From positions 64,401 through 128,400 of the forward strand of contig JAFGJO010000055.1 of NCBI GenBank assembly GCA_016929065.1: DNA of 64,000 bases, read 5' to 3'. Every line of letters starts with the position of its first letter. Position 1 is the first letter of the stretch. Source of the stretch: Spirochaetales bacterium. GTDB lineage: Bacteria; Spirochaetota; Spirochaetia; SZUA-6; RPPD01. Of this stretch, positions 30,734 to 48,286 are shown piece by piece. The notes beneath the pieces are model-generated. The model made no database searches. It saw nothing but the letters and a program-made list of their open reading frames with translations, and had not been told where the DNA came from. The translations under genes were made by a program, and so were the position numbers.

Positions 30734-31264
30734 ATGAAGCGTCTATTGTTATCATTAATTGTTTTATTTGCTTTTGGCGGATTTCTTTTTGCGCAGGATA
30801 CAGCGTCTCATGAGGTGCAATTGACTGTCGCTGAGGTATGTCTTATCGATCTCAATGATCCTGCACTAATCACTCTGGAAACAACAATACCGGCCAACGG
30901 CGGTGAAGATCCGGCAGGCGAAAGCAATACTGACAAATATCTGCAGTACACATCGCTTGTTCCGTCAGGACAAACCAGGGCAATCTCGATTGCCTGGGAT
31001 GTTGCTGATTCCGCTCCGGCGGGGACCGCGCTTCTTCTGGAAGCAATCGCTGTTCCTGCAAACTGCGGCACCGCGGCAGGTCAAATCACCGTGTCCAGTT
31101 CCGGGCAGAATCTAATCACAGGAATCGGCAGCTGTGCGACCGGCACGGGTGCAACCACCGGTGCACAGCTCCAGTATGACCTGTCGATTACCGATGTCAC
31201 CCAGCTGAATGTCGGCGATACCAGCACAGTGACAATTTATTTCACTCTGACGACAGCATCGTAA
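30734..31264 (+). CDS. Secreted subunit-like protein (candidate fibre or surface-layer component)
   Basis: The protein has 176 residues with a signal peptide ending near FLFAQ. The mature part is Thr/Ser/Ala-rich beta-sandwich sequence with a Cys in VAEVCLID, a further Cys in NCGTAAG, and the block LITGIGSCATGTG followed by QLQYDLSITD. I recall similar GIGSC-type secreted proteins in Bacteroidetes gene clusters beside chaperone-like and usher-like proteins; that recall is not proof. Strong GGAGG before the ATG and a terminator directly after the gene suggest it is the most highly expressed product of the cluster. Confidence 0.6.
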   Translation: MKRLLLSLIVLFAFGGFLFAQDTASHEVQLTVAEVCLIDLNDPALITLETTIPANGGEDPAGESNTDKYLQYTSLVPSGQTRAISIAWDVADSAPAGTALLLEAIAVPANCGTAAGQITVSSSGQNLITGIGSCATGTGATTGAQLQYDLSITDVTQLNVGDTSTVTIYFTLTTAS

Positions 31265-31274
31265 CCCCCTTTAC

Positions 31275-31309
31275 CAAAGAGGAGGGCAGCAATGTCCTCC
31301 TCTTTTTTT
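31275..31309 (+). terminator. Terminator or attenuator between the two small secreted-subunit genes
   Basis: Stem AGAGGAGG/CCTCCTCT (31278-31285 with 31296-31303), extendable by flanking A/T pairs and with a 10-nt loop, is followed by seven T. The downstream gene starts at 31347 with its own GGAGG, so partial read-through would give a large first-gene excess. Confidence 0.8.
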
Positions 31310-31346
31310 CACTCTGCCGGTGGACAGGGTGCAGCGGAGGCAACAC

Positions 31347-31844
31347 ATGAAGCGTGTTTTTTCATTCATCAGACATTCCCTGATTGTACTTCTTGTGTTT
31401 TGTGTGGTATCTTCTGCATTTTCTGCGCCGAAAATATCCATAAAGGTGCAGATCGCGGGCGGCGGATGGACTGTTGATCTTGATGAGACAAATCTTTCCG
31501 GTGGCGCGGGATCAGATTTTGTCTCGCCGATAGAAAGTGCAAGCGATCTGATTGATGTGGACGTGACCAAACCGGCGAACGGCTGGCAGGTGTCCATTAT
31601 GCGGACCGATAGTGTCTGGAATTCAAACATCAGAATATATGCGCGACGGACAACTGACGGGAGCGGGACGGGAACAATTGCCGACGGGACTACGTATCAG
31701 GAGATTACCACGAGTGACTGGTATTTTTTTTCCGGCACGCTGGATAGATCCGGTTTGAAAATACAGCTTTCTCTGGACGTCGACGCCTCAATTGGTGTGG
31801 ATAATTTTTCTACTACATTATATTACACGGCGACCGAAATTTAG
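31347..31844 (+). CDS. Second small secreted subunit-like protein
   Basis: The protein has 165 residues with a signal peptide ending near AFSA. The mature part is beta-rich (ISIKVQIAGGGWTVDL, QLSLDVDASI, LYYTATEI) and has no Cys after the signal region. Role inferred from its place between the major subunit-like gene and the chaperone-like gene: a minor or tip subunit. ATG 31347 has GGAGG 7 bases upstream. Confidence 0.55.
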   Translation: MKRVFSFIRHSLIVLLVFCVVSSAFSAPKISIKVQIAGGGWTVDLDETNLSGGAGSDFVSPIESASDLIDVDVTKPANGWQVSIMRTDSVWNSNIRIYARRTTDGSGTGTIADGTTYQEITTSDWYFFSGTLDRSGLKIQLSLDVDASIGVDNFSTTLYYTATEI

Positions 31845-31857
31845 ACAGGAGACACAA

Positions 31858-32670
31858 ATGAAGGACCGTTCTGCCTTTTTACTGACATTTGCTTTTTTTC
31901 TGCTTGCTCCTGTCCTGCTTAATGCGAATATTATTGTAAAAAACGGGCTTACCCATGAAAATGAGGCCGCATCCGGGGAGTACTATGAGGGATCGCTTGA
32001 ACTCCAGAACGATGCCGACATCCCCCAGGAAGTAAAAATTTATCAGGCAGATTATTTTTTCTATGCTGACGGGAGAATTCTCTATACCGATCCGGGGAAG
32101 CTTGAGCGCTCAAATGCGCACTGGATAACCTTTTCCCCGAAACGTCTGACCATCCCGCCGAAAGAGGAGATTTCGGTCCGTTTTTCGGTAAAGGTTCCCG
32201 CAGACAAGATGCTTTCCGGCAGTTACTGGAGTGTTTTTATGGTTGAGGGAATCCCCGATGAGAGTCCTGAATCCACAAAATTCAAACCGCAAGAGTCGGG
32301 GCTTGGCGTACGGCAGGTCTTTCGCTATGCCATCCAGATTGTCACTCAAATTGGCGCTGTCGGGAAAAAATCCGTTCAGTTTCAGGAAACAAAACTGCTC
32401 AAGCAGGGTGTGGAGCAGTTTTTGCGTCTTGATATCAAGAACAATGGTAAATGGTGGCTGCGGGCAACAGTTTGGGCTGAACTTTATGACCAAAACGGAA
32501 ATTTTGTCGGGAAATACGAGGCGGCGCCGCTAAGGCTGTACCCCGAGACATCGGGCCGGTTTGCCATTCCCCTCAGTGATGTTCCCAATAACACTTACAA
32601 AGCCCTGATTATCGTCGACTGCGGCGGTGAGGATATTTATGGAGCGAACCTGAATCTGATAATTAAATGA
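31858..32670 (+). CDS. Periplasmic Ig-fold chaperone candidate
   Basis: The protein has 270 residues with a signal peptide ending near LLNA. The mature protein reads as two Ig/fibronectin-like beta-domains: domain 1 with [32 protein letters not shown] and [15 protein letters not shown]; domain 2 with [23 protein letters not shown]. The layout (two Ig-like domains, no C-terminal membrane anchor, beside subunit-like genes and an usher-like barrel) recalls PapD/FimC-type chaperones, but the classical PapD signature is not evident. AGGAG precedes ATG 31858. Its TGA overlaps the ATG of the next gene (ATGA). Confidence 0.6.
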
Positions 32671-35600
32671 AACAGTTTTTTTTTGTCTGCTGCTTTTCAT
32701 CATCTCGTATTCTGCCTGGACTCAGGACAGCGGAATCTTTCTATCCCGAAAAGGGCCTCCGGTCGTGGAAGTCAGGTCACGCGCAAATGTCTCGACAGCT
32801 TTTTTTATTACAAACCGACGGTCATGGTCCCGTTCTTTTGAGCAGCAACTTCTGCTTCCTGAGGGATGGAAAATTGTCAGTCCCCTGTTTCAGCTGACCG
32901 TCCCTCCCGGATCATCAGAGCTTTTTATTACTCATTTTCTTGTACCGGAAGGAGCGGCTGCGGGAGATTACCCGGTTGTCTATAAAGTTGCCGATACAAA
33001 TAATGCTGCGCTGGCAGAAACATTGTCCTTTGTTGTACGGGTACTTCCCTTTCCAAAACTGGAAATAAAGGTATTAAAAATTCCGGATTATGTTGTCGGC
33101 GGGGATTCCTATAGTATCGAGTATGTGGTGCAGAATACGGGGAATACAGCACTTGACAGCTTCTTTTTTGTTAAAAATACCGGGAATTACAATGTCGCGT
33201 TTGTTTCGCCGGAGTTTCCTTCGAGCGGGCATCAACTGATGCTGGCTCCTGGCGAACAAGTGACACTTGTTATTACAATTAAAACGACGGCGGGTATCCG
33301 ACGAACCTTTAATCACAGTGTGACGCTGTATGCGGAATGCCGTCTGCCCGGGGGCGGGGAGGTGGTAACCGGCACCAGAGAGGTCAGCAGGGTGGAATTA
33401 ATTCCGTTAATTACACAGGAGAGTTCCATCATGCACACGATTCCGCTCCAGCTGTCTGTCAAAGGTCTGGTCGATTATCTGGATGATACCTGGGTGGCAG
33501 GCAGTGAGGCCGAGATACGGGCTAAGGGAACCCTGGACGAAAACAAGGCGCATGCGGTCGAGCTTTTTCTGAAGAAGCGGATAGATAACGGCAATGACCT
33601 GCTCTTTCATCAGAACGACCGATACAGTGCGGAGTATACCTCGTCATTACTCAATATTAAGGCGGGAGATCACGGCTGGGAACTCTCCCCGCTGCTCGAT
33701 AGCTACCGTTTTGCGCGGGGCATCGGGGGATCGGTATTCCTGAATCCGGTTTATTTCGGGGGGTATTATTATCAGGATATCTGGTCGTTCGACGCCCGTC
33801 AGAACATAGCAGGATATATTGATTATCTGTTCGAAAACAAAGCGTACCCCCGCGGATACAACTACCGGGTCGGGTTGAATGTGATGAGCCCGTTCCAGGA
33901 CAATGTTCTCTTCAGTCTTGAACAGGAATTCCTGCCGCTTACAAATATCCGGCTTCTGCTTGATCTGGGCGGTGAAACAGAAAGCGACGGCTCCTTTTCC
34001 AAAGCCGGATTTTTTGAGGGGACAGGAGACCACGGCTGGCTCCAGTACCGGCTTACCGGGATTTATGCTGATCCTGATTTTGACGGGTATTATCGGGACC
34101 GGTATCAGGTTTCCGGCAACGCGACTGCGAGGTTTCTTGAAGAACGATTGACACTAAGTGCCCGGCTATCACTTGTTGAAAACAATCTTCTCAACGATAC
34201 GGAACGGTCGACTGCTCAGCGAAAGTTCACCGCACAACTCGGAGGGAGATATCTTTTTACGGATATAAAGATGAATCTCCAGGGAACGTACCAGTTTGTG
34301 AATACGTTCGACAAATTTCCCGCTCATGAATATGATACGTTCGAAAACAGTCTGCGGCTGATTGCCCGGTTTCCGATTGATATTTTTTCATTCTCGCTGA
34401 TTACCTTTTTTGCAGTCAAATATGATATCGCCGATTATTCTTCAACTTTTTATCATAAATATCATGCGGATGTGGATTTTCCCCTTTTCGCGACGATGAA
34501 CCTGCATCTGCTGGCATATTATGACGGGACGGTTGAGGCGGAAGACGACATCAGCCACCGCTTCGGATTCGGCGCAGGTGCCCATATCAGCCTTGACCGG
34601 TTTCGTATTAATGCTGACATAAAGAACAGTTATCTGTTTGTTACCCAGGAATACCGCTGGATTTCGCTGGATTTCGCTGCGGGGCTGACATATACCTTGC
34701 CAAACCGGCACAGTATTTCGAGCTCGCTGTCTTACGTGATGGTAAACTCCATTCAGGGCTTTTACCATACCTTCTCGTTCTGGCTCAAATATACCGCTCC
34801 TTTGGACATACCTGTCAGCCCCAAAGATACCGCAGTCATTGTGAAGGGCCGAATTTATGACGAGTCGACCGGGCAGGGACGGCCCGGTGTCATTCTCCGT
34901 GTTAACGGCGCCGCGACGATGACCGATATGAACGGCAATTATGCGTTTTATCTTGCCAGTGCGGGTCAGTATTATCTTCACATCGACCGGTCCCGTCTGG
35001 GTGAGTCCATGATACCCAACAAACAGATGCCGGTGCTGATTAATTCGGTGAAGGGGACTGTCTATGTAGAAGATTTCGGGCTTATCCGGGCGGCCTCCGT
35101 TACAGGACATGCTGCTGTCTATGAACCGGTTACCAAAGGAACCATCGCTCTGCAGGAAAAAGACGGGACCGGTCTTGCCTATAAGCGTACAGCCGGTCTC
35201 CCCAATCAGCTGCTTGAGATATCGGATGGAAAGGATGTCCAGCGGCTGCTGACGGATGTGAATGGTGATTTCAAATTTGAGGAAGTGCGTCCGGGGAAAT
35301 GGACCCTGAAAGTACTCGGCGGTAAAATCCCGCAATATTATCATTTTGAGGTTGATGAGTATGAATTTATTGTAACGCCGGGCGAGACAGAGGAATTTAT
35401 CTTCCGGGTGGTCCCGGATAAGCGGGAGATAAGATTTGTGGAAACTACAGAGACAGTAACACTTGATCCGGCCACTCCGACGCTCGATACGTTCGGTGAG
35501 ATTACCATACAGACTGAAGAAATTACGGATAAACCTCCCCGGCCGACACCAACGCCAACGCCAACGCCGACACCAACACCAACGCCAACACCAACACCAA

Positions 35601-35809
35601 CACCAACACCAACACCAACACCGACACCAACACCAACACCAACACCAACACCGACACCGACACCGACACCAACGCCAACGCCAACGCCAACGCCAACGCC
35701 AACGCCAACGCCAACGCCAACGCCAACGCCAACGCCAACACCAACACCAACCCCCAAACCAACACCGGCGCCGCTGCCGACACCGCGGCCAACACCCCGG
35801 CCATATTAA
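32667..35809 (+). CDS. Usher-like outer-membrane barrel protein, out of frame with its own signal peptide by one base
   Basis: Translation from ATG 32667, which overlaps the upstream stop, yields a signal peptide only if one base is added to (or two removed from) the run of nine T at 32676-32684; then [20 protein letters not shown] runs on into the 1014-residue frame. As sequenced, ATG 32667 ends after 76 residues at 32897, while the long frame opens at GTG 32765 without a signal. The protein has NEW3/CARDB-like Ig domains (about the first 200 residues), a large beta-barrel region with [18 protein letters not shown], two transthyretin/carboxypeptidase-regulatory-like domains ([31 protein letters not shown]), and a terminal Thr-Pro repeat. 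Read as the exporter of the neighbouring subunits, by analogy with ushers. Confidence 0.75.
32676..32684 (+). repeat. T9 homopolymer in the usher-like signal peptide
   Basis: Nine consecutive T lie seven bases after the ATG (bases 10-18 of the coding region). Ten T (or seven) would join the signal peptide to the main frame; nine T puts them out of frame. Such tracts change length by slippage during replication or transcription. Confidence 0.9.
35545..35751 (+). repeat. Hexanucleotide repeat encoding about 34 Thr-Pro dipeptides
   Basis: A run of 6-bp units (CCAACG, CCAACA, CCGACA variants) encodes alternating Pro and Thr, ending in mixed Lys-Pro, Arg-Pro and Ala-Pro units to the stop. The array sits at the C-terminus of the usher-like protein, is probably extended and exposed, and is prone to copy-number change. 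Thr-Pro-rich linkers are classic O-mannosylation substrates of bacterial PMT enzymes. Confidence 0.9.
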
Positions 35810-35889
35810 AAAATGGAGGAAAGGAAAAATGCATGCAATTAATGGAAAAAACCATATACTATATAGCGAAGAGCATGAGGAGGTCGAAA

Positions 35890-37044
35890 ATGAACGGTAA
35901 GGCAGGCAGTCTGCTCTTTATCTGCACAATTTTATTGCTGTTTCCACTCTATGCGCAGGAAAATCTGGTTAATAACAACAGTTTTGAAAGAGATGACGTA
36001 TTGGGAAATTTAACCTGGTGGGAGACTGATTCTTTTATTCAGAATAGCAGTTCTGCACTTATTGTACCGGTTGAGGGGATCAGCCGTACCGGAAAACGCT
36101 CACTCTTGGTCCTCAACTATATTCCAAATGATTCGCGGGCTGTGCAATGGGTTCGGGTACAGCCGAACACTGTATACAGGTTTTCTGCATGGGTTTATAT
36201 AGAAGAATCCGGTCCGCAGGGAAAGGGAGCCAATATTTCTGTTTATGGTTCTATTTTCCCTTCAGATGACTCTGCCCCGGCAAAAAAAGAGTGGCAAAAG
36301 ATAGAGCTTGTCGGAAAAACCGGTGGGGATCAAACGGAACTTCCGGTAAATGTCCGGCTGGGTTTTTTTGGAAGGCTGTCCACCGGGAAGGTATATTTTG
36401 ATGACGTGGAAATGATAAAGCTTGATGCAATGCCGGCAGGAAAAGTGATTGATCTCTCTCAAAACGAGGGGACCGGTGTGGTGAGCTATAAAGAGAAGAA
36501 AGATGAAAAACAGGGATTTTTCGAAAATGTAAATATCCTGCTGGTCATCGTAACCGGCGCACTTGGATTTATTGTCCTGCTCCTCGTTCTTCAGCTTTTT
36601 GGTGTTTTTGGAAAAATTGTAAAAGCAGTGTCCGGCGATAAAAAGTCGTTGCCAAAAAAAGAACCGGTCACTGTCGATCAGAAGGCGGCCCTTGATAAAA
36701 TAGAACGGCGAAGGACACCGCGAAAAAAGATAAAACTGGATATCGTTCTTTCCAGGAAGATGCCCGGCGGCGGGTATGAGATTCTTGAACTTCAGACCAT
36801 TGATTTGTCTGAAACCGGAACCCTGGTGAAATCAGAGGATCTGGGTGCATTGAAAATAGACGACAAGGTCTCCTGTGAAATAGAGTACAAAAAACGACGT
36901 TTTGATGTCGGCGAGGCAAAAGTAGTGCGGAAAGAAGAGATTTACGACAAAAAAGGGAAACTCAAAAAAAGCGGATTCGGGCTGGTGTTTGTCTCTGAAG
37001 CACAACCGTTTTTAAAGAACCGGAAAATGCTGATGAAGGAATAA
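35890..37044 (+). CDS. Membrane protein with extracytoplasmic carbohydrate-binding-like domain and cytoplasmic PilZ domain
   Basis: The protein has 384 residues. A signal-anchor is followed by a galactose-binding-fold domain (about 25-185) whose later part reads WQKIELVGKTG, QTELPVNVRLG, STGKVYFDD; the same domain occurs in the double-GT-C protein encoded at 38018. A transmembrane helix (about 215-240) leads to a cytoplasmic PilZ domain with RRTPRKK (RxxxR) and DLSETGT (DxSxxG). It could relay c-di-GMP state to, or sense binding at, the surface. AGGAGG before ATG 35890 fixes the start. It is last in the plus-strand cluster and meets the convergent glycosyltransferase operon. Confidence 0.8.
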   Translation: MNGKAGSLLFICTILLLFPLYAQENLVNNNSFERDDVLGNLTWWETDSFIQNSSSALIVPVEGISRTGKRSLLVLNYIPNDSRAVQWVRVQPNTVYRFSAWVYIEESGPQGKGANISVYGSIFPSDDSAPAKKEWQKIELVGKTGGDQTELPVNVRLGFFGRLSTGKVYFDDVEMIKLDAMPAGKVIDLSQNEGTGVVSYKEKKDEKQGFFENVNILLVIVTGALGFIVLLLVLQLFGVFGKIVKAVSGDKKSLPKKEPVTVDQKAALDKIERRRTPRKKIKLDIVLSRKMPGGGYEILELQTIDLSETGTLVKSEDLGALKIDDKVSCEIEYKKRRFDVGEAKVVRKEEIYDKKGKLKKSGFGLVFVSEAQPFLKNRKMLMKE

Positions 37045-38017: not shown

Positions 38018-41000
38018 TTACGCGTGAAATATCCATGAAGGAAGCCACTTGAGGGCAATATCCACAAAATCTTTTGCGATGGGGATGCCGGTTAATACCG
38101 GATAAAACAATACAAACAGGATACCGCAGAGTATACAAAAAATATACCCCGCATACCGGAACTCCCGTTTCAACTTTACCAGATGCTGTACAGAATAAAC
38201 AAGTGCGAAGATTATAAACGGGACAGCCGGAAAAAAATGATAAATAAATGTGAGATCCCGCGGAATAATAATCCACGGCAGGTACGTAAGGAGAAACGAG
38301 ATAATGATAAACATTCCCGCCTTTTCCCTCTTGAGGATTGCGAACATTGCCGCTGATATAATTGCAAGTGTTCCCATCCACCATACAAGCGGATTTCCCA
38401 TTGACACGATACTCGAAATAAATCCATGTGGTATGTTTTCTGTTCCCTGATACAGCCAGATCGGTTTTTCCACCAGCGGCCATGACCACCATTTTGAGGA
38501 GAACTCATGCTCTGTTTTCAGATTTTTATGATAGGCGTACATATTCTCCTGCTCACGCACAAATTCACGGAAGATATTTTTTTCCCTGTTGCGGTATAAT
38601 GACGGGGTCGAAGAGATGAGATATATCGAAGCTGGAACGATCAAGGCGCAGAGCAGGAATATTTTGCCGGTCCGCCAGAGAAAGAGAAGAGGCGTTCCCC
38701 GGGTTTTTCCCTTGTTGGATGAAATAGAGTACTTCAAAAACTGAATGACGGTAAATATGAATAATATAAAAAATCCAGGAGCGAGATACATTCCGGTCCA
38801 TTTCACCGAGACCGCCAGTCCGAAAAATATTCCGGCGGTCAAAAGCGGGAAGAAAGGGAGTGTGTCTTCCTGCTTTGAAAAAAGCAGTTTTGTATAGCGG
38901 AAAAGAAAGTATGCCGAGATCGTCATGAACAGTACGAGGAAGATGTCGACGGTGGCCATTCTTGACTGGACAAAATGCATGAAATCAACGGCCATAAGAA
39001 ATACTGCGGCAAGCGCGGGCAGTTTCCGGCGAAACAATGCAATGCCGAATGTGTACATGACCGGAAGCAGAATAATTCCTGCAAGAACACCCATAATCCG
39101 CCACCCGAACGGATTCATGCCGAAAAGCATGATTCCCAGAGAGATAATGAGTTTGCCCAGCGGTGGATGAGTCGTTTCGGTCGGCTGGTCATTCTCAATG
39201 TATTCATATGCGGTTCTTGCAAAATACACTTCATCAAAGTACATGCCGTTAAGCCAGGATGCTGGTAGTTGTGCGCTCGTTTGTTCATCGAATACGGCTG
39301 AAAATACAGTGGAAGATCCGGAAACAGGATCAACTTCCCGGCAGGATGCAATAGGGAGGACGGTGCCTCCAGCGTTTTTGGCTGCGGCTTCGAAAAGACG
39401 AAGTCCCGGCCGGCTGGTGGTAATCCGCATATATTTTGCAGTGACAGACACGGGAATGACCCGCCACTCAATATATCGGTAAGGGGTATCCTGGCTTATG
39501 GTGACTGGTGATTCCCATGTTGTCCTGTCTCTGGAAAAATCAATGGAATAGCCGCCGATGCCGTACCCGGTATAGAGACGCAGCTGCGAGATTGGTTCAG
39601 GCCGGTCAAATTCCGCGATTCCCTGTTCGCCTGTGTGCAGCGGGTTCCAGTAAGTTTGGGGCGTATTTGTTAATCCAAGGCCATACAATGAAATCAGTCC
39701 ATAGAGTATTGTGACGATGATGATTGCACGGTGGTTTTTCAAAAAAGGCATGATTTTTCTGATCTTTTGAAATCGGGGCAAACCGGGGGCAAACAGGTTT
39801 ATTGGGATCTTTCTTATTTCAACAATCCGTTTTTTTAAAAGAATGTCGTACAGTGTTTTTAATGAAAATAAAAACAGGCCACAATTCACCGCGGAAAGGC
39901 TCACCAGAAAAAAATCATTGCCGGGAATATGGTAGCTGCCGGTCTGATTGACCAAATAATAGACCACTGCCTGGTTAATAAACAGGGTAGCGGAAAATCC
40001 CCCATACAGATACAAAAGCCGCCTGTCTTTGCACAGAATAAATCCAAGCAGCAAAAATACAAGAGCGGGAAACAGATACCGTTCGTGCATTTTTGATCCA
40101 AACAGGAAGGTCGCAGAAAAGAGAAAAAATACCAGGAGTATTTTACGTGCGCCGTGATGTGAACGGAAGAAAATAATTCCGGAGATTCCTGTTATGATGA
40201 AAAGCCAGATGAAATTCCATGCAAAAACCGGAAACAGCAGGGATGTGGAATCCGGTGAAAAATTCAATCCAAGCAAGGAATAAAGGTTTGCAGCATTCAG
40301 GCTTGCAAACGGGTATTGCGCCAGAGATTCACCGTACAATGAGATAATCCAGAACGGGGATTGTTTAAAGGAAAAAGGAAGTATTATCAGTACAGCCGCA
40401 GCAAGGGAAACGATGACCGAAATGGCGATCTTTTTCCACGAATGCGACCGGATGAATGTAAAAAGGATGACTGGTGCGCAAACCAGTGCCGAAATTTTTG
40501 TCAGCACTGCAAACGTAAAAAACAGTCCGGTGAGTAAAAGTCTTTTATTGCCGGCAGAGAGAATTGCAATAACGATAAACAGGGTAAAAACCGTATCCAC
40601 CTGGCCCCAGACAGATGAATTAAACAGTATGGCTGGATTCAAAAAATACAGGAAAGACAAAAGGAGCGCCCATCCGTGATGTATTCTTTTTTTCCCCCAT
40701 TTAAAAATGACCAATGCGGTGACCAGGTCGGCAAAAATGGCAGGCAGTTTTATCAGAATATAATACAGCGGACTTTGAAATGACAGGCCAAACAGATTCC
40801 GTATGCCGCCGACAATCCACAGTATGTACAGATACAGCGGAGGATAATCGGTAAATTGCGAATCAGTATATACGTGTGAAAACCCCTTGGTGAACGCGGT
40901 CTCGGACCAGCCGGAAAAACACGCGAAGTCATTGGGAAAACCGAAAGATCCCGCGGCAAGCAGTATTCTGACAATAAAGACACCGGCAAATCCGGCGGCC

Positions 41001-41770
41001 AGCATACCGGTCAATTTCAAGGATGCAAGCTCCTGAAACCTGTTTTTTTCCAGAACAAACCTCAGGAATATTTTTATCAGCACAACAAACAATATGCCAA
41101 CACATAAAATAAAGAACAGAGCAGGAATGTCCACGCTGAAGGGTGTGGTTACCGAGGCATGTTCTGTTTGTGAGGGATCAAAATTCACAAAGGATGTCTG
41201 CGTCAAAGCAGCTCCCGGCGGTAGCTCTCGAATAGAAATATCGTCAAACCATGCTCTGCCGGCGGAGAGATTACCATAGCTGCCGATCCCGACTGCAACG
41301 GGCAGCTCTGTCTGTCCGGAACCGGTTTTGCCGGCAAGTAATATTTTTGTCCATGAATTTGGTCCTGCAGACAAATCCCGGGATCGCGCAAGTGTTCCGG
41401 GAATACTGATGCATACAGACGGCTTTTTGTTTTGGCTTGATGTATCTGATGTCTTTACCCAGCAGGATATCTCATACAGAGTGTCGGGTTTTACCGAAAC
41501 ATATTGAACCAGGCGAATGTCATTGGGGACGGTTGTTTCGATACGCACTGATGAGGTTCCGCTATGAGCCACAGCTGAATCGGATACATGGACAAAACCG
41601 CTTTCCTTGAATGCAGAAATGTTCCAGAGAAGGGGTTTTTCGGCCTGATGTTTTTCAAACCCGCTGTTGGCAATTGTTGTTTGCGAAAAACCTCCCTGAA
41701 TCGAAAACAGCATAACGCAGCAGATAAAACATGTGGAAAAAACAGGCGCGAGGTTTATTTTTATCAGCAT
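38018..41770 (-). CDS. Double GT-C glycosyltransferase with carbohydrate-binding domains (PMT-like C-terminal half)
   Basis: The protein has 1250 residues. Order: signal peptide (1-30); galactose-binding-like domain (31-190) homologous to that of the nearby PilZ protein; first membrane GT-C module (about 250-650) with DYPPLYLYIL; short linker; a second F5/8-type-like beta domain (about 710-830); then a PMT-type module (about 840-1250) with DEVYFARTA and THPPLGKLI. The PMT half would transfer a sugar from polyprenyl phosphate to Ser/Thr of exported proteins. The first half may add a second sugar or modify a glycan. Fusion of two GT-C modules is unusual. Confidence 0.82.
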   Translation of the reverse strand: MLIKINLAPVFSTCFICCVMLFSIQGGFSQTTIANSGFEKHQAEKPLLWNISAFKESGFVHVSDSAVAHSGTSSVRIETTVPNDIRLVQYVSVKPDTLYEISCWVKTSDTSSQNKKPSVCISIPGTLARSRDLSAGPNSWTKILLAGKTGSGQTELPVAVGIGSYGNLSAGRAWFDDISIRELPPGAALTQTSFVNFDPSQTEHASVTTPFSVDIPALFFILCVGILFVVLIKIFLRFVLEKNRFQELASLKLTGMLAAGFAGVFIVRILLAAGSFGFPNDFACFSGWSETAFTKGFSHVYTDSQFTDYPPLYLYILWIVGGIRNLFGLSFQSPLYYILIKLPAIFADLVTALVIFKWGKKRIHHGWALLLSFLYFLNPAILFNSSVWGQVDTVFTLFIVIAILSAGNKRLLLTGLFFTFAVLTKISALVCAPVILFTFIRSHSWKKIAISVIVSLAAAVLIILPFSFKQSPFWIISLYGESLAQYPFASLNAANLYSLLGLNFSPDSTSLLFPVFAWNFIWLFIITGISGIIFFRSHHGARKILLVFFLFSATFLFGSKMHERYLFPALVFLLLGFILCKDRRLLYLYGGFSATLFINQAVVYYLVNQTGSYHIPGNDFFLVSLSAVNCGLFLFSLKTLYDILLKKRIVEIRKIPINLFAPGLPRFQKIRKIMPFLKNHRAIIIVTILYGLISLYGLGLTNTPQTYWNPLHTGEQGIAEFDRPEPISQLRLYTGYGIGGYSIDFSRDRTTWESPVTISQDTPYRYIEWRVIPVSVTAKYMRITTSRPGLRLFEAAAKNAGGTVLPIASCREVDPVSGSSTVFSAVFDEQTSAQLPASWLNGMYFDEVYFARTAYEYIENDQPTETTHPPLGKLIISLGIMLFGMNPFGWRIMGVLAGIILLPVMYTFGIALFRRKLPALAAVFLMAVDFMHFVQSRMATVDIFLVLFMTISAYFLFRYTKLLFSKQEDTLPFFPLLTAGIFFGLAVSVKWTGMYLAPGFFILFIFTVIQFLKYSISSNKGKTRGTPLLFLWRTGKIFLLCALIVPASIYLISSTPSLYRNREKNIFREFVREQENMYAYHKNLKTEHEFSSKWWSWPLVEKPIWLYQGTENIPHGFISSIVSMGNPLVWWMGTLAIISAAMFAILKREKAGMFIIISFLLTYLPWIIIPRDLTFIYHFFPAVPFIIFALVYSVQHLVKLKREFRYAGYIFCILCGILFVLFYPVLTGIPIAKDFVDIALKWLPSWIFHA

Positions 41771-41840: not shown

Positions 41841-44381
41841 TTATTGGTACAGCAGCAACGTGTGATCGATTTCTTTTTGTGTCATCGGTAATCGTATGGT
41901 GAACCGGGTTCCTTCTCCGGGGACCGAGGAAACGGAAATGCCCCCCTTATGATTTTCCACGATCATTTTACAGAGTGCAAGCCCAATTCCCGTCCCCTCT
42001 TGAACAGAGGATGTTTCAACACGGCTGAAAATATCAAAAATACGGGAAAACTGATCCGGCGGGATACCCTGCCCGTTATCTGATATAACAATACTGGTAA
42101 ATATTTTTCCCCTGGTTGTTGCGGAAATCGCGATGGTTGATGCCACTTCGGTATTTCTGAATTTAAGCGCATTGTCAATCAGGTGAAAAAACAGAAGCTG
42201 GATCTGGTTTGGGTCTCCTTCAATGGTCGGGAGCGGGCCGATTTCCATGGATACTTCGTATTCTGTTATGATGCGGTCAAGAATATCGCAGATGGTCTGA
42301 ACAGTCCTGTTCAGATCCACTTTTTGATTGTTTCCTCCCGAGACAAGGACGTTTGTATAATCGGTGAGGTCCTTTAAAAGATTTTCGGCTTTGTCGATGG
42401 AGGTAAATATGCGGTTGATATCATCCCGCAATAATTCAGGGATCTGGAGATTATTAAAATAAAATTCTTTACCGGAATGAACCATGCGGTTGAGCGGTTC
42501 CTGCAGTGCGTGGATGAACAGGGATGAATATTCTTTGAAATCGCGGTTTGTATTTTCAATGGACATGATTTCCCGGTCTCTTTTCTCGATTGTCTGCAGC
42601 TTGTTGATTGTACTGTTGAGCTCACTGCCAAGTTCCTCATATAGTGTGCCGTTCGGGGAAATAATTTGAATACAGGAATATCCGGACAATTTTGTTGTTG
42701 AATAAATGCCTGAAATCAGCATGCAGAGCGGTTTTTTATCCGGCATCAGCTGCTCTGGAATAATTGTGGCTGCCGGGAACCGAATTGGGGCAGTTTCATC
42801 AGCCACCAGTGTATTGTCTTTCTGGCCAAGGAAAAGCCGGGCATATAATTCATGGTCACCCGTCTCCTCGAATAATGAAATAAAACAGAAGGCGATATTC
42901 AGTTTTAACAGTTTTTTCATGAATGCATCAGAGAATTCACGGGCATTCAAATGGGTAAAATATGATGTATCAACTTCCCGGAGCCTTACCTGAATGTTTT
43001 TTTTCTCGCTGAGGGCCCGTATGCAGGAGTGGATGCTTGTTTCACTTATTTTCAGTCTGAGTTCAAGAATTGCGGATTGTACTGCTTCAATTTGTTTTCC
43101 GGAAAGAAGAGTTTCAAGCTGTCTCTGAAGGATAGTCAGGATATTCTGCCAGTTTGAATGAAACGCAGGTGAAAATGTATTCTCCCTGAGATATGTATCC
43201 AGATGCAGAATAAGATGTCTGCTATCAGTATTGTCTCCCGTTACTATATGCCCTAATTCATTGTAAAGAAAAAGTACGGTGTCATATTCATTTGAGGATA
43301 AGCCGGTGCAGAGAGCTTTTTCTATCTGGCTGATCAATTCCTTCTGTAATAATTCTTTATCTGGTGTGCGTACTGTAAAAGGTTTGGATACGGTGACATT
43401 TTCGACTGCTTCATAGAGACAGCCGCAGGAGGTTCTGATTGCCAGGCTGCTTGGTACAAGAATTTGCTGCGTGGAGGTGTCCCCCTTCAAATGGGCATGC
43501 AGAAGCTGGACTGCTTTTTCTCCCATTTCAAAAAAATGGGGATTTACTGTTGTCAGGGGTGGAGTGGCGCAACGTTCCCGGTCCATATTGTTGTATCCGA
43601 TCACCGCGATGTCATCCGGAACCCTGATCCCCCTGTTTTGCAGGATTTGCATTGAATTTAGCGCGAGACCGCCGGAAGCGGCCAGTATCGACTGGAAATC
43701 TTTTCCCGGCACAAGGTTTTGTTCATCAAGAATTGCATTCAGACTGTTTTTGCCTTTTTCCCAGTCAGCCGGCGGGGTGATCAGCCGCTGATCAACAGGA
43801 ATATTGTTTTCCAGCAGAGCATCAAGATATCCCTGGTACCGCTGCATGGCACCCCAGTGAAATTGTGGACCGCGGATGAACAGTATTTTTTGGTTGTTAT
43901 GATGCTGTACAAGATGGTGTACCGCTTTTTTTACTCCGCAATAGCTGTCATCAATGATACTGGGTATTCCGGGGAGTGCATATTCACCAATCACGACCGG
44001 AATGGAAGAAAAATGCCGAACAAATGTCTCAATATCCTGTTTGCCGGAGAATGGGCCGATGCCGCCGAACCAGATAATGAGCCCGTCAAGAAATTTATCT
44101 GATACAATCTTTGTGAGAAACGAGTTTTTTGCGATAATTTCCTCGGGAGAAGCCACCAGTCTGCCGGAGAAGCAATACAAGTCAAGATTTGCTTTTTTAC
44201 ATCCCTCTATAACGCCCTGCCATTGCAATTCCCGTACCTGATTTGAAATTGTCCGGATTAATAATCCTATTTTTTTCCCATCAGTATATCCAGGGAGTGA
44301 TTCACCATGAACAGGGATTGGTGTTTGTTTCACTGTTTCTCCATACTTTGACAGCCTTACGGATATCGCCCGTCTCACCAT
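41841..44381 (-). CDS. Cytoplasmic hybrid: LacI-like substrate-binding sensor fused to a histidine kinase
   Basis: The protein has 846 residues and no transmembrane segment. The N-terminal 330 residues are a LacI/periplasmic-binding-type fold (GKKIGLLIRT, GVIEGCKKANL, VIGYNNMD, then SLAIRTSCGC) without a helix-turn-helix. A long linker of about 300 residues leads to a dimerisation helix with HALQEPLNRM (His as phosphoacceptor, near 650) and an HATPase with NALKFRN, DNGQGIP, GTGIGLALCK. It should sense a small molecule in the cytoplasm. No response regulator gene lies beside it. It is last in an operon with the DHH and propeller genes. Confidence 0.85.
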   Translation of the reverse strand: MVRRAISVRLSKYGETVKQTPIPVHGESLPGYTDGKKIGLLIRTISNQVRELQWQGVIEGCKKANLDLYCFSGRLVASPEEIIAKNSFLTKIVSDKFLDGLIIWFGGIGPFSGKQDIETFVRHFSSIPVVIGEYALPGIPSIIDDSYCGVKKAVHHLVQHHNNQKILFIRGPQFHWGAMQRYQGYLDALLENNIPVDQRLITPPADWEKGKNSLNAILDEQNLVPGKDFQSILAASGGLALNSMQILQNRGIRVPDDIAVIGYNNMDRERCATPPLTTVNPHFFEMGEKAVQLLHAHLKGDTSTQQILVPSSLAIRTSCGCLYEAVENVTVSKPFTVRTPDKELLQKELISQIEKALCTGLSSNEYDTVLFLYNELGHIVTGDNTDSRHLILHLDTYLRENTFSPAFHSNWQNILTILQRQLETLLSGKQIEAVQSAILELRLKISETSIHSCIRALSEKKNIQVRLREVDTSYFTHLNAREFSDAFMKKLLKLNIAFCFISLFEETGDHELYARLFLGQKDNTLVADETAPIRFPAATIIPEQLMPDKKPLCMLISGIYSTTKLSGYSCIQIISPNGTLYEELGSELNSTINKLQTIEKRDREIMSIENTNRDFKEYSSLFIHALQEPLNRMVHSGKEFYFNNLQIPELLRDDINRIFTSIDKAENLLKDLTDYTNVLVSGGNNQKVDLNRTVQTICDILDRIITEYEVSMEIGPLPTIEGDPNQIQLLFFHLIDNALKFRNTEVASTIAISATTRGKIFTSIVISDNGQGIPPDQFSRIFDIFSRVETSSVQEGTGIGLALCKMIVENHKGGISVSSVPGEGTRFTIRLPMTQKEIDHTLLLYQ

Positions 44382-47218: not shown

Positions 47219-48286
47219 ATGAAACAGAAAAATGATCATGTCCATGAACATGAACGGCTCGTCGGAGAAATACTTCAGCATTGTCTGGATATTGATACAG
47301 CTGCCCTCCACATATACCGTGATTTTTCTTCACTCCCCCTGGTTGACGATGTTCTTGCTTTTTTCAAACAGCTTCAGCATGAGGAAGCAACCCATGTTTC
47401 ATACTGGCGGCAGCTGTTAAAACTTTCAAAGGAAGGTTTTGTCATGCAGCTGTTTGAAGATCCCCGGCTGACGCTTCTGGAACTGAAACATGTCCTGCGC
47501 ACCACTGAAAAAATACAGACGGATGTAAAACGGCACCGGTATCGGACCACCGAGGAAATGTTTTATGCCATGCTCCGCGTTGAATATTCATTCCTGTTCC
47601 CTCCTTTTGTCGAATTGTTCCGTTTTGCGGAATTTGTCCCGGACCATATGTCAATGGAAAAAGAGTATGATGACCATATTCAGCATATAGTGAACATGTT
47701 GAAAATCAAAAGCTATCACAATCCGATGCTCATGCTTTCGGGTGAATACATCCAACGGCTCTGGAAAATAACCCGTGAATCCAACAACAAGGGTGTCTTT
47801 GACATGCTGACCGGCGTATTTACCCGGCAGGGATTTTACCAGCACCTGCGGCCTTTAAGTTTTCTTTCAATGCGGCGGGAATTGACGGTTGCCATCATGA
47901 TGATCGATGTCGATTTTTTCAAGAAAATCAACGATTCACTGGGCCACCCGGCAGGTGATGCAGCAATTCGATATGTCGCTGAATATATTCTGCAAAATAT
48001 CAGGAAATCCGATATACTGGGTAGATTCGGCGGTGACGAGTTTATTGTTTTTTTCTCTGATGTACAGGCTGATGCCCTGCTCGATATGGCAGAGAAAATC
48101 CGTGCGGGTATCGCAGCACAAAAGACCGGTTTTGGCAAATTGACCGTGAGCATCGGGATTGCGCTGGATGTCATGACTGATGAACCCGAAAAGCTGGTGG
48201 AGCGTCTGCTGAAAGAAGCGGATACTGCGTTATACGATGCAAAAAACAACGGGCGGAATTGCGCAAAGTTATTCAAGCGTGAATAA
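47219..48286 (+). CDS. Diguanylate cyclase with N-terminal ferritin-like (rubrerythrin-like) domain
   Basis: The protein has 355 residues. The N-terminal 165 residues resemble a four-helix ferritin/rubrerythrin module: LDIDTAALHIY, LQHEEATHVSYW (EExxH), LRVEYSF and EKEYDDHIQHI. The C-terminal GGDEF domain is intact (FGGDEF), with an upstream RKSD inhibitory site five residues before it. It should make c-di-GMP in response to iron or oxygen. GAGG lies 11 bases upstream. No EAL or HD-GYP gene is in the window; the two PilZ proteins could be its readers. Confidence 0.82.
   Translation: MKQKNDHVHEHERLVGEILQHCLDIDTAALHIYRDFSSLPLVDDVLAFFKQLQHEEATHVSYWRQLLKLSKEGFVMQLFEDPRLTLLELKHVLRTTEKIQTDVKRHRYRTTEEMFYAMLRVEYSFLFPPFVELFRFAEFVPDHMSMEKEYDDHIQHIVNMLKIKSYHNPMLMLSGEYIQRLWKITRESNNKGVFDMLTGVFTRQGFYQHLRPLSFLSMRRELTVAIMMIDVDFFKKINDSLGHPAGDAAIRYVAEYILQNIRKSDILGRFGGDEFIVFFSDVQADALLDMAEKIRAGIAAQKTGFGKLTVSIGIALDVMTDEPEKLVERLLKEADTALYDAKNNGRNCAKLFKRE

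Follow-up and report, generated by a model that had tools for sequence, protein, structure and literature searches.

In mycobacteria, the first mannose is attached by a protein O-mannosyltransferase (PMT) of family GT39; PimE, a GT87 enzyme, then extends this mannose, drawing on the same lipid donor (PMC12757957). Glycosylation of the Caldicellulosiruptor bescii protein CelA, whose linkers consist mostly of alternating Thr and Pro, requires a GT39 gene located near celA, and the encoded enzyme has a carbohydrate-binding-like domain in its loop 1 (PMC6151902). Here we describe a gene in which a GT39 PMT and a GT87/PIG-M-like enzyme, both glycosyltransferases of the GT-C type, are fused in a single chain. 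It lies in a 64,000-nt window from a Spirochaetales bacterium (contig JAFGJO010000055.1); all coordinates are positions in this window, and G and L numbers denote the compared genomes and loci. The evidence from sequences and predicted models favours, with a probability of roughly 55%, a single-chain, two-active-site enzyme that performs a two-step extracytoplasmic protein O-glycosylation.

Just as in other GT39 PMTs (yeast Pmt1, Pmt2 and Pmt4, and bacterial PMT), the second module of the fusion protein has PF02366, PF16192, the DE motif and the PMT fold; unlike them, it carries a lectin-like domain in loop 1 and is preceded by a second GT-C module, and no MIR domain was listed in the whole-protein Pfam scan. 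PimE resembles module 1 in fold, but it is a separate single-module protein, whereas here the corresponding part is fused to a PMT and has a GT87 Pfam score just at the cut-off. The C. bescii GT39 Cbes_1864 shares with the fusion the loop-1 domain and the location of its gene near a cellulase with Thr-Pro linkers, but it is a 556-residue protein with a single GT-C module; C. bescii GT39/CelA is the nearest case in print to a fusion accompanied by Pro-Thr-linker enzymes (PMC6151902). The pgf operon of Streptococcus mutans resembles our locus in combining a GT2 (PgfS) with two membrane proteins, PgfM1 of the PMT_2 subfamily and PgfM2, and its substrate has a Thr-rich region; it differs in that the membrane parts are separate, an epimerase is included and the system is streptococcal (PMC5856776). 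The three-component GtrA/GtrB/GT-C systems likewise combine a GT2 with a GT-C enzyme, and GtrA is present in some of our loci too, but the fusion has two GT-C modules in one chain and a transferase of the PMT type (PMC11127046).

Literature searches for such a fusion found no description of it in titles or the beginnings of abstracts; it joins known enzyme families. GT-C enzymes have been studied one active site at a time; a natural chain that holds two complete modules from different GT-C families, and whose halves stay fused or adjacent in three distant lineages, would give a structural model of a protein passing from sugar initiation to extension. The fusion further suggests that spirochaetes, Vulcanimicrobiota and Bathyarchaeia have systems for O-glycosylation, and makes Pro-Thr-linker cellulases candidate acceptors.

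In the fusion protein, a CBM4-like domain (CBM, carbohydrate-binding module) is followed by GT-C module 1, a basic joint and the GT39 PMT module. The sequence-only reading of this gene had proposed a 1250-residue chain with two polytopic GT-C modules, which was confirmed by the uninterrupted reading frame and by the GT-C fold predicted for both halves. Its concern that the fusion might be an artefact can be set aside, for although some relatives encode the halves separately, the alignments of others run unbroken across the joint. A single local alignment covers query residues 24-1249 in the G002 orthologue, 277-1249 in G032 and 15-1249 in G088, the latter two being single-contig genomes, and two archaeal fusions align in the same unbroken way (254-1248 and 256-1248). 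The gene sits inside a 131,845-base contig, and its G+C content stays at 0.43-0.50 throughout. The fusion is real, and its halves probably work together.

Among the loci fetched and read, 19 have one frame with both modules: five on the spirochaete side (the window and L060-L063), 12 in Vulcanimicrobiota (L014 and L095-L105) and two in Bathyarchaeia (L090 and L091). The database search suggested by the sequence-only reading thus recovered the same fusion elsewhere, together with relatives whose halves are separate. One candidate, L013, was rejected as a fusion, being PMT only. In the order of the window, the PMT module was found in 8 of 26 genomes and is fused in this genome (G000) and in G002; the other six (G001, G003, G008, G013, G018 and G022) have CBM-PMT proteins of about 890-950 residues. 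CBM-module-1 proteins are encoded at separate loci in G003, G008, G013 and G022, and G018 has a lone module-1 protein; the locus of the latter (L067:7409-12774) places this module-1 gene near a GT2 gene and small CBM proteins, and has no PMT. A phylum sample of 296 genomes, searched with at most two candidates per genome scored in most rows, so that copies may be missed, added full fusions only in G032, G088 and G180 among the matches listed. In Vulcanimicrobiota/Eremiobacterota, some match was seen in 94 of 98 genomes; at least 57 have a module-1 match inside a frame of at least 980 residues, and a listed module-2 match shares this frame in 37 of them. In Bathyarchaeia, 55 of the 151 genomes searched gave any match. 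Strong PMT matches (E <= 1e-50) were seen in 31, and a count by eye from the match list placed the module-1 match adjacent on the contig or in-frame in 24 of these and on another contig in 1, with none listed in 6; apart from the two fusions, most Bathyarchaeia have the halves as neighbouring separate genes, with a GT2 gene after them.

The trees of the two modules (39 rows for module 1, 46 for module 2), built after removal of rows whose module stretch did not exceed 250 residues, agreed in their main groups. In them the archaeal fusions branch from within the split archaeal pairs, indicating repeated gain or loss of the fusion. To explain the well-supported branches, the fused/split label must change at least five times on the module-2 tree and at least twice on the module-1 tree; long branches, the window's own rows included, make the placement of single rows unsure. 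That the modules were repeatedly joined or parted argues that both work on one pathway. On the spirochaete side, a fission into separate proteins, each keeping a CBM, would fit the tree. A divergent fusion of two GT-C-like parts in G493 (L105:3506-6913), with a long branch in both trees, may have arisen independently, by fusion with another GT-C family.

The first module resembles several GT-C enzymes. Residues 1-665 taken alone reached 25.2 bits with GT87 (PF09594, cut-off 25), whereas the whole-protein Pfam scan did not list GT87; 10 of the 14 members of the module-1 alignment matched PF09594 at E <= 1. Searched against the PDB, the module-1 profile (14 sequences) matched glycosylphosphatidylinositol (GPI) mannosyltransferase 1 at E 1.6e-9, a match confined to 129 profile positions (96-224), and an archaeal oligosaccharyltransferase at E 0.0047. 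The halves were modelled separately by AlphaFold2, with alignments of the window sequence and loci L001-L014. The best fold match of the module-1 model was ALG6, well above background (Z 28.6, 378 aligned, 3.3 A), followed by ALG3 (Z 26.6), GPI mannosyltransferase I (Z 25.1) and, further down, PimE (9dm5, Z 20.5, 362 aligned, 4.4 A), and Foldseek agreed with the GT-C fold matches of both modules. The predicted fold therefore does not single out PimE, as ALG6, ALG3 and GPI mannosyltransferase I score higher. PIG-M, ALG6 and ALG3, which module 1 matches in fold at Z 25-29 (PIG-M also by the short profile match above), are eukaryotic enzymes with a single GT-C module and lipid-linked acceptors.

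Asp281 and Lys341 are identical in all 39 module-1 sequences, as is Pro311, while Asp308 is present in 37 and His562, Glu563 and Arg564 are each kept in 38 of the 39, across two domains of life. It had been proposed that each module has its own acidic motif, DYPPL in the first and DEVYF/THPPLGK in the second. Conserved acidic residues are indeed kept in both, but the pairing has to be revised: in a profile comparison, DYPPL aligned with THPPLGK and not with the DE motif, whose likely counterpart in module 1, judging from the alignments, is Asp281 in NDF.

The assignment of the second module to GT39 is supported by all three Pfam families found in this half of the protein, PMT (PF02366, 75.2 bits, cut-off 22.7), PMT_4TMC (PF16192, 78 bits, cut-off 32.4) and PMT_2 (PF13231, 55.7 bits, cut-off 26.1), and PF02366 and PF16192 were matched by 15 of the 15 alignment members at E <= 1. 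The module-2 profile found yeast Pmt1 at E 5e-16 and Pmt4 at E 2.4e-15, and the predicted model was closest to Pmt4 (Z 27.7, 395 aligned, 3.7 A), followed by Pmt2 (Z 26.1) and ArnT (Z 22.8); the structure prediction of each half, which had been named as the check, thus agreed with GT-C folds. Asp846-Glu847 and His868-Pro869-Pro870 are identical in all 46 module-2 sequences. The NCBIfam equivalog for protein O-mannosyltransferase, NF058602, gave 72.5 bits against a cut-off of 800, so the fusion protein is not filed as that equivalog. Since the acidic and motif residues are conserved in both alignments, both modules look catalytically live, as far as sequences and models can tell. The modules are only distantly alike (profile probability 57.6, E 1e-4, with a poor N-terminal alignment) and their nearest folds differ, ALG6 type versus PMT type; a recent internal duplication was therefore rejected.

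Both lectin-like beta domains foreseen in the sequence-only reading were found. At the N-terminus, CBM_4_9 scored 17.4 bits, below the cut-off of 25.9, and residues 46-184 of the predicted model match CBM4 modules at Z about 10. The second domain (residues about 704-830) is F5/8C/CBM32-like, with a best Z shown of 9.1 over 92 residues, and in an orthologue it passes PF00754 at 30.3 bits; it is an insertion in loop 1 of the PMT module, between the first transmembrane helix and the DE motif, and split archaeal PMT proteins also carry such a domain. A hydrophobic segment (residues about 5-29) precedes the CBM4-like domain, which is presumably exported; an extra transmembrane helix (residues 215-240) stands in front of module 1, and the joint, with 9 Lys/Arg and 1 Asp/Glu in residues 646-676, is presumably cytoplasmic. 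An exported N-terminal CBM and a cytoplasmic basic joint would place both active sites on the outer face of the membrane. This CBM belongs to a large family in relatives within the order (e.g., G003, G008 and G022), with many copies on otherwise different proteins. A neighbouring gene (35833-37044, +) encodes a CBM 33% identical to that of the fusion protein; this CBM follows a signal-like N-terminus and shares its chain with a PilZ domain and a hydrophobic stretch. The product looks like a link of outside sugar binding to c-di-GMP signalling, and a GGDEF gene is located at 47219-48286.

Among NCBIfam models, the GT2 encoded by the gene after the fusion comes nearest to PgfS (276.3 bits) and PRK10714 (186.5 bits) but stays below their cut-offs of 500 and 529. 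A GT2 gene adjoins the fusion in all five spirochaete-side loci and the pair of halves in 18 of 18 Bathyarchaeia loci, and it stands beside the PMT gene in L066, L069, L072, L074 and L076. No GtrA gene was found beside the fusion/GT2 pair here, and three GtrA matches over the cut-off lie on other contigs of this genome; in G032 (L060) GtrA comes after GT2, and in L070, L071 and L075 it comes after CBM-module-1 genes. The suggestion that the chain itself might flip a glycan found no support, as nothing in the fusion protein looks flippase-like, and relatives of the fusion or of its first half have the proposed flippase, a GtrA-type protein, encoded by a neighbouring gene of its own.

In the favoured reading, the GT2 would charge undecaprenyl phosphate with a hexose, and the charged lipid would be flipped by a GtrA encoded elsewhere in the genome. 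On the outer face of the cytoplasmic membrane, module 2 would then start the glycan with one sugar on Ser/Thr, the probable targets being tails or linkers rich in Pro and Thr, and module 1 would add the next sugar or sugars to the PMT product from the same lipid donor, while the CBM and the lectin-like loop may hold the glycan or the growing glycoprotein. The whole chain would thereby be the mycobacterial pair, a PMT that starts and PimE that extends, joined in one polypeptide. Because module 2 is a GT39 enzyme, module 1 has the PimE/ALG6/ALG3/PIG-M fold and there is a mycobacterial precedent, one chain doing both steps is the simplest reading, and of the several considered, the addition of two sugars in sequence, as first suggested from the sequence, is the best supported. 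The order of the steps, the sugar and the acceptors are inferred. In a broader form, which we hold only tentatively and at less than even odds, GT39 and GT87/PIG-M-like enzymes would have been fused several times in Bacteria and Archaea into a one-chain starter and extender that hands the acceptor between membrane sites and, in cellulolytic spirochaetes, is dedicated to the Pro-Thr linkers and tails that secreted enzymes and surface proteins carry.

The acceptor proposal was examined by a search for the (Pro-Thr)5 codon pattern, chosen after seeing the neighbour gene, in the genomes of the order and the phylum sample, both of which include the genome of the window, 321 different genomes altogether; it counts a DNA pattern, not proteins, with frames read for a subset of loci. 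The five genomes with the fusion had 31 (G000), 35 (G002), 71 (G032), 41 (G088) and 94 (G180) matches, while 12 of the remaining 316 had 1-7 and the others none (fusion versus at least 31 matches, Fisher P 3.6e-11, with related genomes not independent and the five falling into two families). All 31 overlapping matches of this genome lie in one array 2267 bases from the fusion gene, and the chance of a single random array so near, calculated after the fact, is about P 0.0013. Such tracts are close to the fusion gene in four of the five spirochaete-side genomes and lie in cellulase/xylanase linkers in three: in G032, G088 and G180, genes just past GT2 (in G032, past GtrA too) encode GH10 or GH5 enzymes that combine CBM64 with Pro-Thr linkers. 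Other Pro-Thr proteins in G002, G088 and G180 are GH5, GH9 and GH12 enzymes. In the window, the tract-bearing protein is encoded past GT2 and one further gene, on the strand opposite to the fusion. Read from its listed GTG start (32765), the protein lacks a signal peptide; a stretch resembling one is encoded directly upstream in frame (32640-32780, +), without ATG, GTG or TTG and beside a T run.

Several results weigh against the proposal. The spirochaete-side link with Pro-Thr tracts amounts to about two independent lineages. The six genomes of the order with separate halves or PMT alone have 0-1 Pro-Thr matches, so PMT does not require such tracts, and G015 has seven matches and no PMT. In Vulcanimicrobiota, 57 genomes have a listed fusion frame, and tracts were found in 29 of these versus 18 of 41 others (Fisher P 0.54), and the Pro-Thr link was rejected as a general rule given this lack of association. 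No GT2 match was found in the flanks, some of them short, of the 12 Vulcanimicrobiota fusion loci fetched. G001 has two PMT genes and no module-1 match was found there, so that module 1 is dispensable in this genome. The confidence of the AlphaFold2 models is middling, with a mean predicted local distance difference test score of 65.0 for module 1 and 64.0 for module 2.

The two modules might instead share a polyprenyl-phosphate sugar and serve different acceptors, module 2 proteins and module 1 a lipid-linked or surface glycan, such that the fusion secures only equal dosage and donor supply. The nearest folds of module 1 (ALG6, ALG3, GPI mannosyltransferase I and PimE) do act on lipid-linked glycans or glycolipids, and some relatives have the halves at separate loci, GtrA adjoining module 1 (L070, L071 and L075) and GT2 adjoining the PMT (L066, L069, L072, L074 and L076). 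We nevertheless consider this unlikely, as repeated fusion or adjacency across two domains of life exceeds what a shared donor seems to need, and PimE shows that such an enzyme can extend protein-linked mannose (PMC12757957). It is rather doubtful, too, that module 2 is GT39-like with a non-protein acceptor, as ArnT on lipid A, in a surface-glycan modification of the three-component Gtr kind. The ArnT fold match, the sub-threshold score of GT2 with the ArnC-like PRK10714 and GtrA in the G032 neighbourhood would agree with this, but the PMT families over their cut-offs, the eukaryotic PMTs as best folds and the Pro-Thr-linker enzymes adjoining the gene in three genomes speak for a protein acceptor.

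Module 1 could also be a catalytically dead GT-C scaffold that aids donor or acceptor binding by the PMT, in the manner of PIG-U, which is thought to be such a scaffold. Chain U of the GPI transamidase (7w72_U), which we take to be PIG-U, is among the fold matches of the module-1 model (Z 21.9); the near-invariance of Asp281, Lys341, Asp308 and the His562-Arg564 residues described above makes this very unlikely. As for an assembly join of two genes, the genome is indeed a 69-contig assembly, but the unbroken alignments to independent genomes, single-contig G032 included, the even G+C content and the position of the gene inside its contig leave this explanation practically negligible. Two sugar additions by a single chain remain our preferred explanation of the locus, whose features are collected below.

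Features of the fusion locus (window positions; residue numbers refer to the fusion protein)
Feature	Position	Strand	Details and basis
Fused double GT-C gene	38018..41770	-	1250 aa, ATG start, single open frame without internal stop
CBM4-like beta domain, residues 29-195	41186..41686	-	CBM_4_9 below cut-off and CBM4 fold match
GT-C module 1, ALG6/PIG-M/PimE-like, GT87-like, residues 246-648	39827..41035	-	Profiles and predicted fold
Asp281 in NDF, putative catalytic acid of module 1	40928..40930	-	Conservation
D308-Y-P-P motif of module 1	40838..40849	-	Conservation, alignment with THPP of module 2
Joint, residues 646-682, basic, presumably cytoplasmic	39725..39835	-	Charge count; alignments of relatives continuous across it
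F5/8-type-C-like (lectin-like) domain, residues 704-835	39266..39661	-	Predicted fold; also in split archaeal PMT proteins
Remainder of GT-C module 2, GT39 PMT, residues 840-1250	38021..39253	-	PF02366, PF13231 and PF16192 over cut-off; Pmt4 fold
Asp846-Glu847, PMT DE motif	39230..39235	-	Conservation
THPPLGK motif of module 2, residues 867-873	39152..39172	-	Conservation
GT2, putative polyprenyl-phosphate sugar synthase, 320 aa	37046..38008	-	9 bases downstream of fusion gene; PF00535 113.5 bits
ORF of 1014 aa, CarboxypepD_reg-like domains and Pro-Thr tail, putative surface protein	32765..35809	+	
(Pro-Thr)n tract, candidate acceptor, C-terminus of ORF 32765-35809	35546..35766	+	Tandem array, 36.8 copies of 6 bases, about 35 Pro-Thr repeats

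Two further observations concern the surroundings of the gene. The row of genes at 30734-35809 (+) looks like a cluster for the export of surface proteins: it encodes small proteins with signal-like N-termini, the chaperone-like product of 31792-32670 and the long Pro-Thr protein. Upstream of the fusion gene (41841-44381, -), a LacI-type sugar-binding domain is fused to a histidine kinase domain, and a similar protein is encoded near the PMT gene in L066 (8554-11094).

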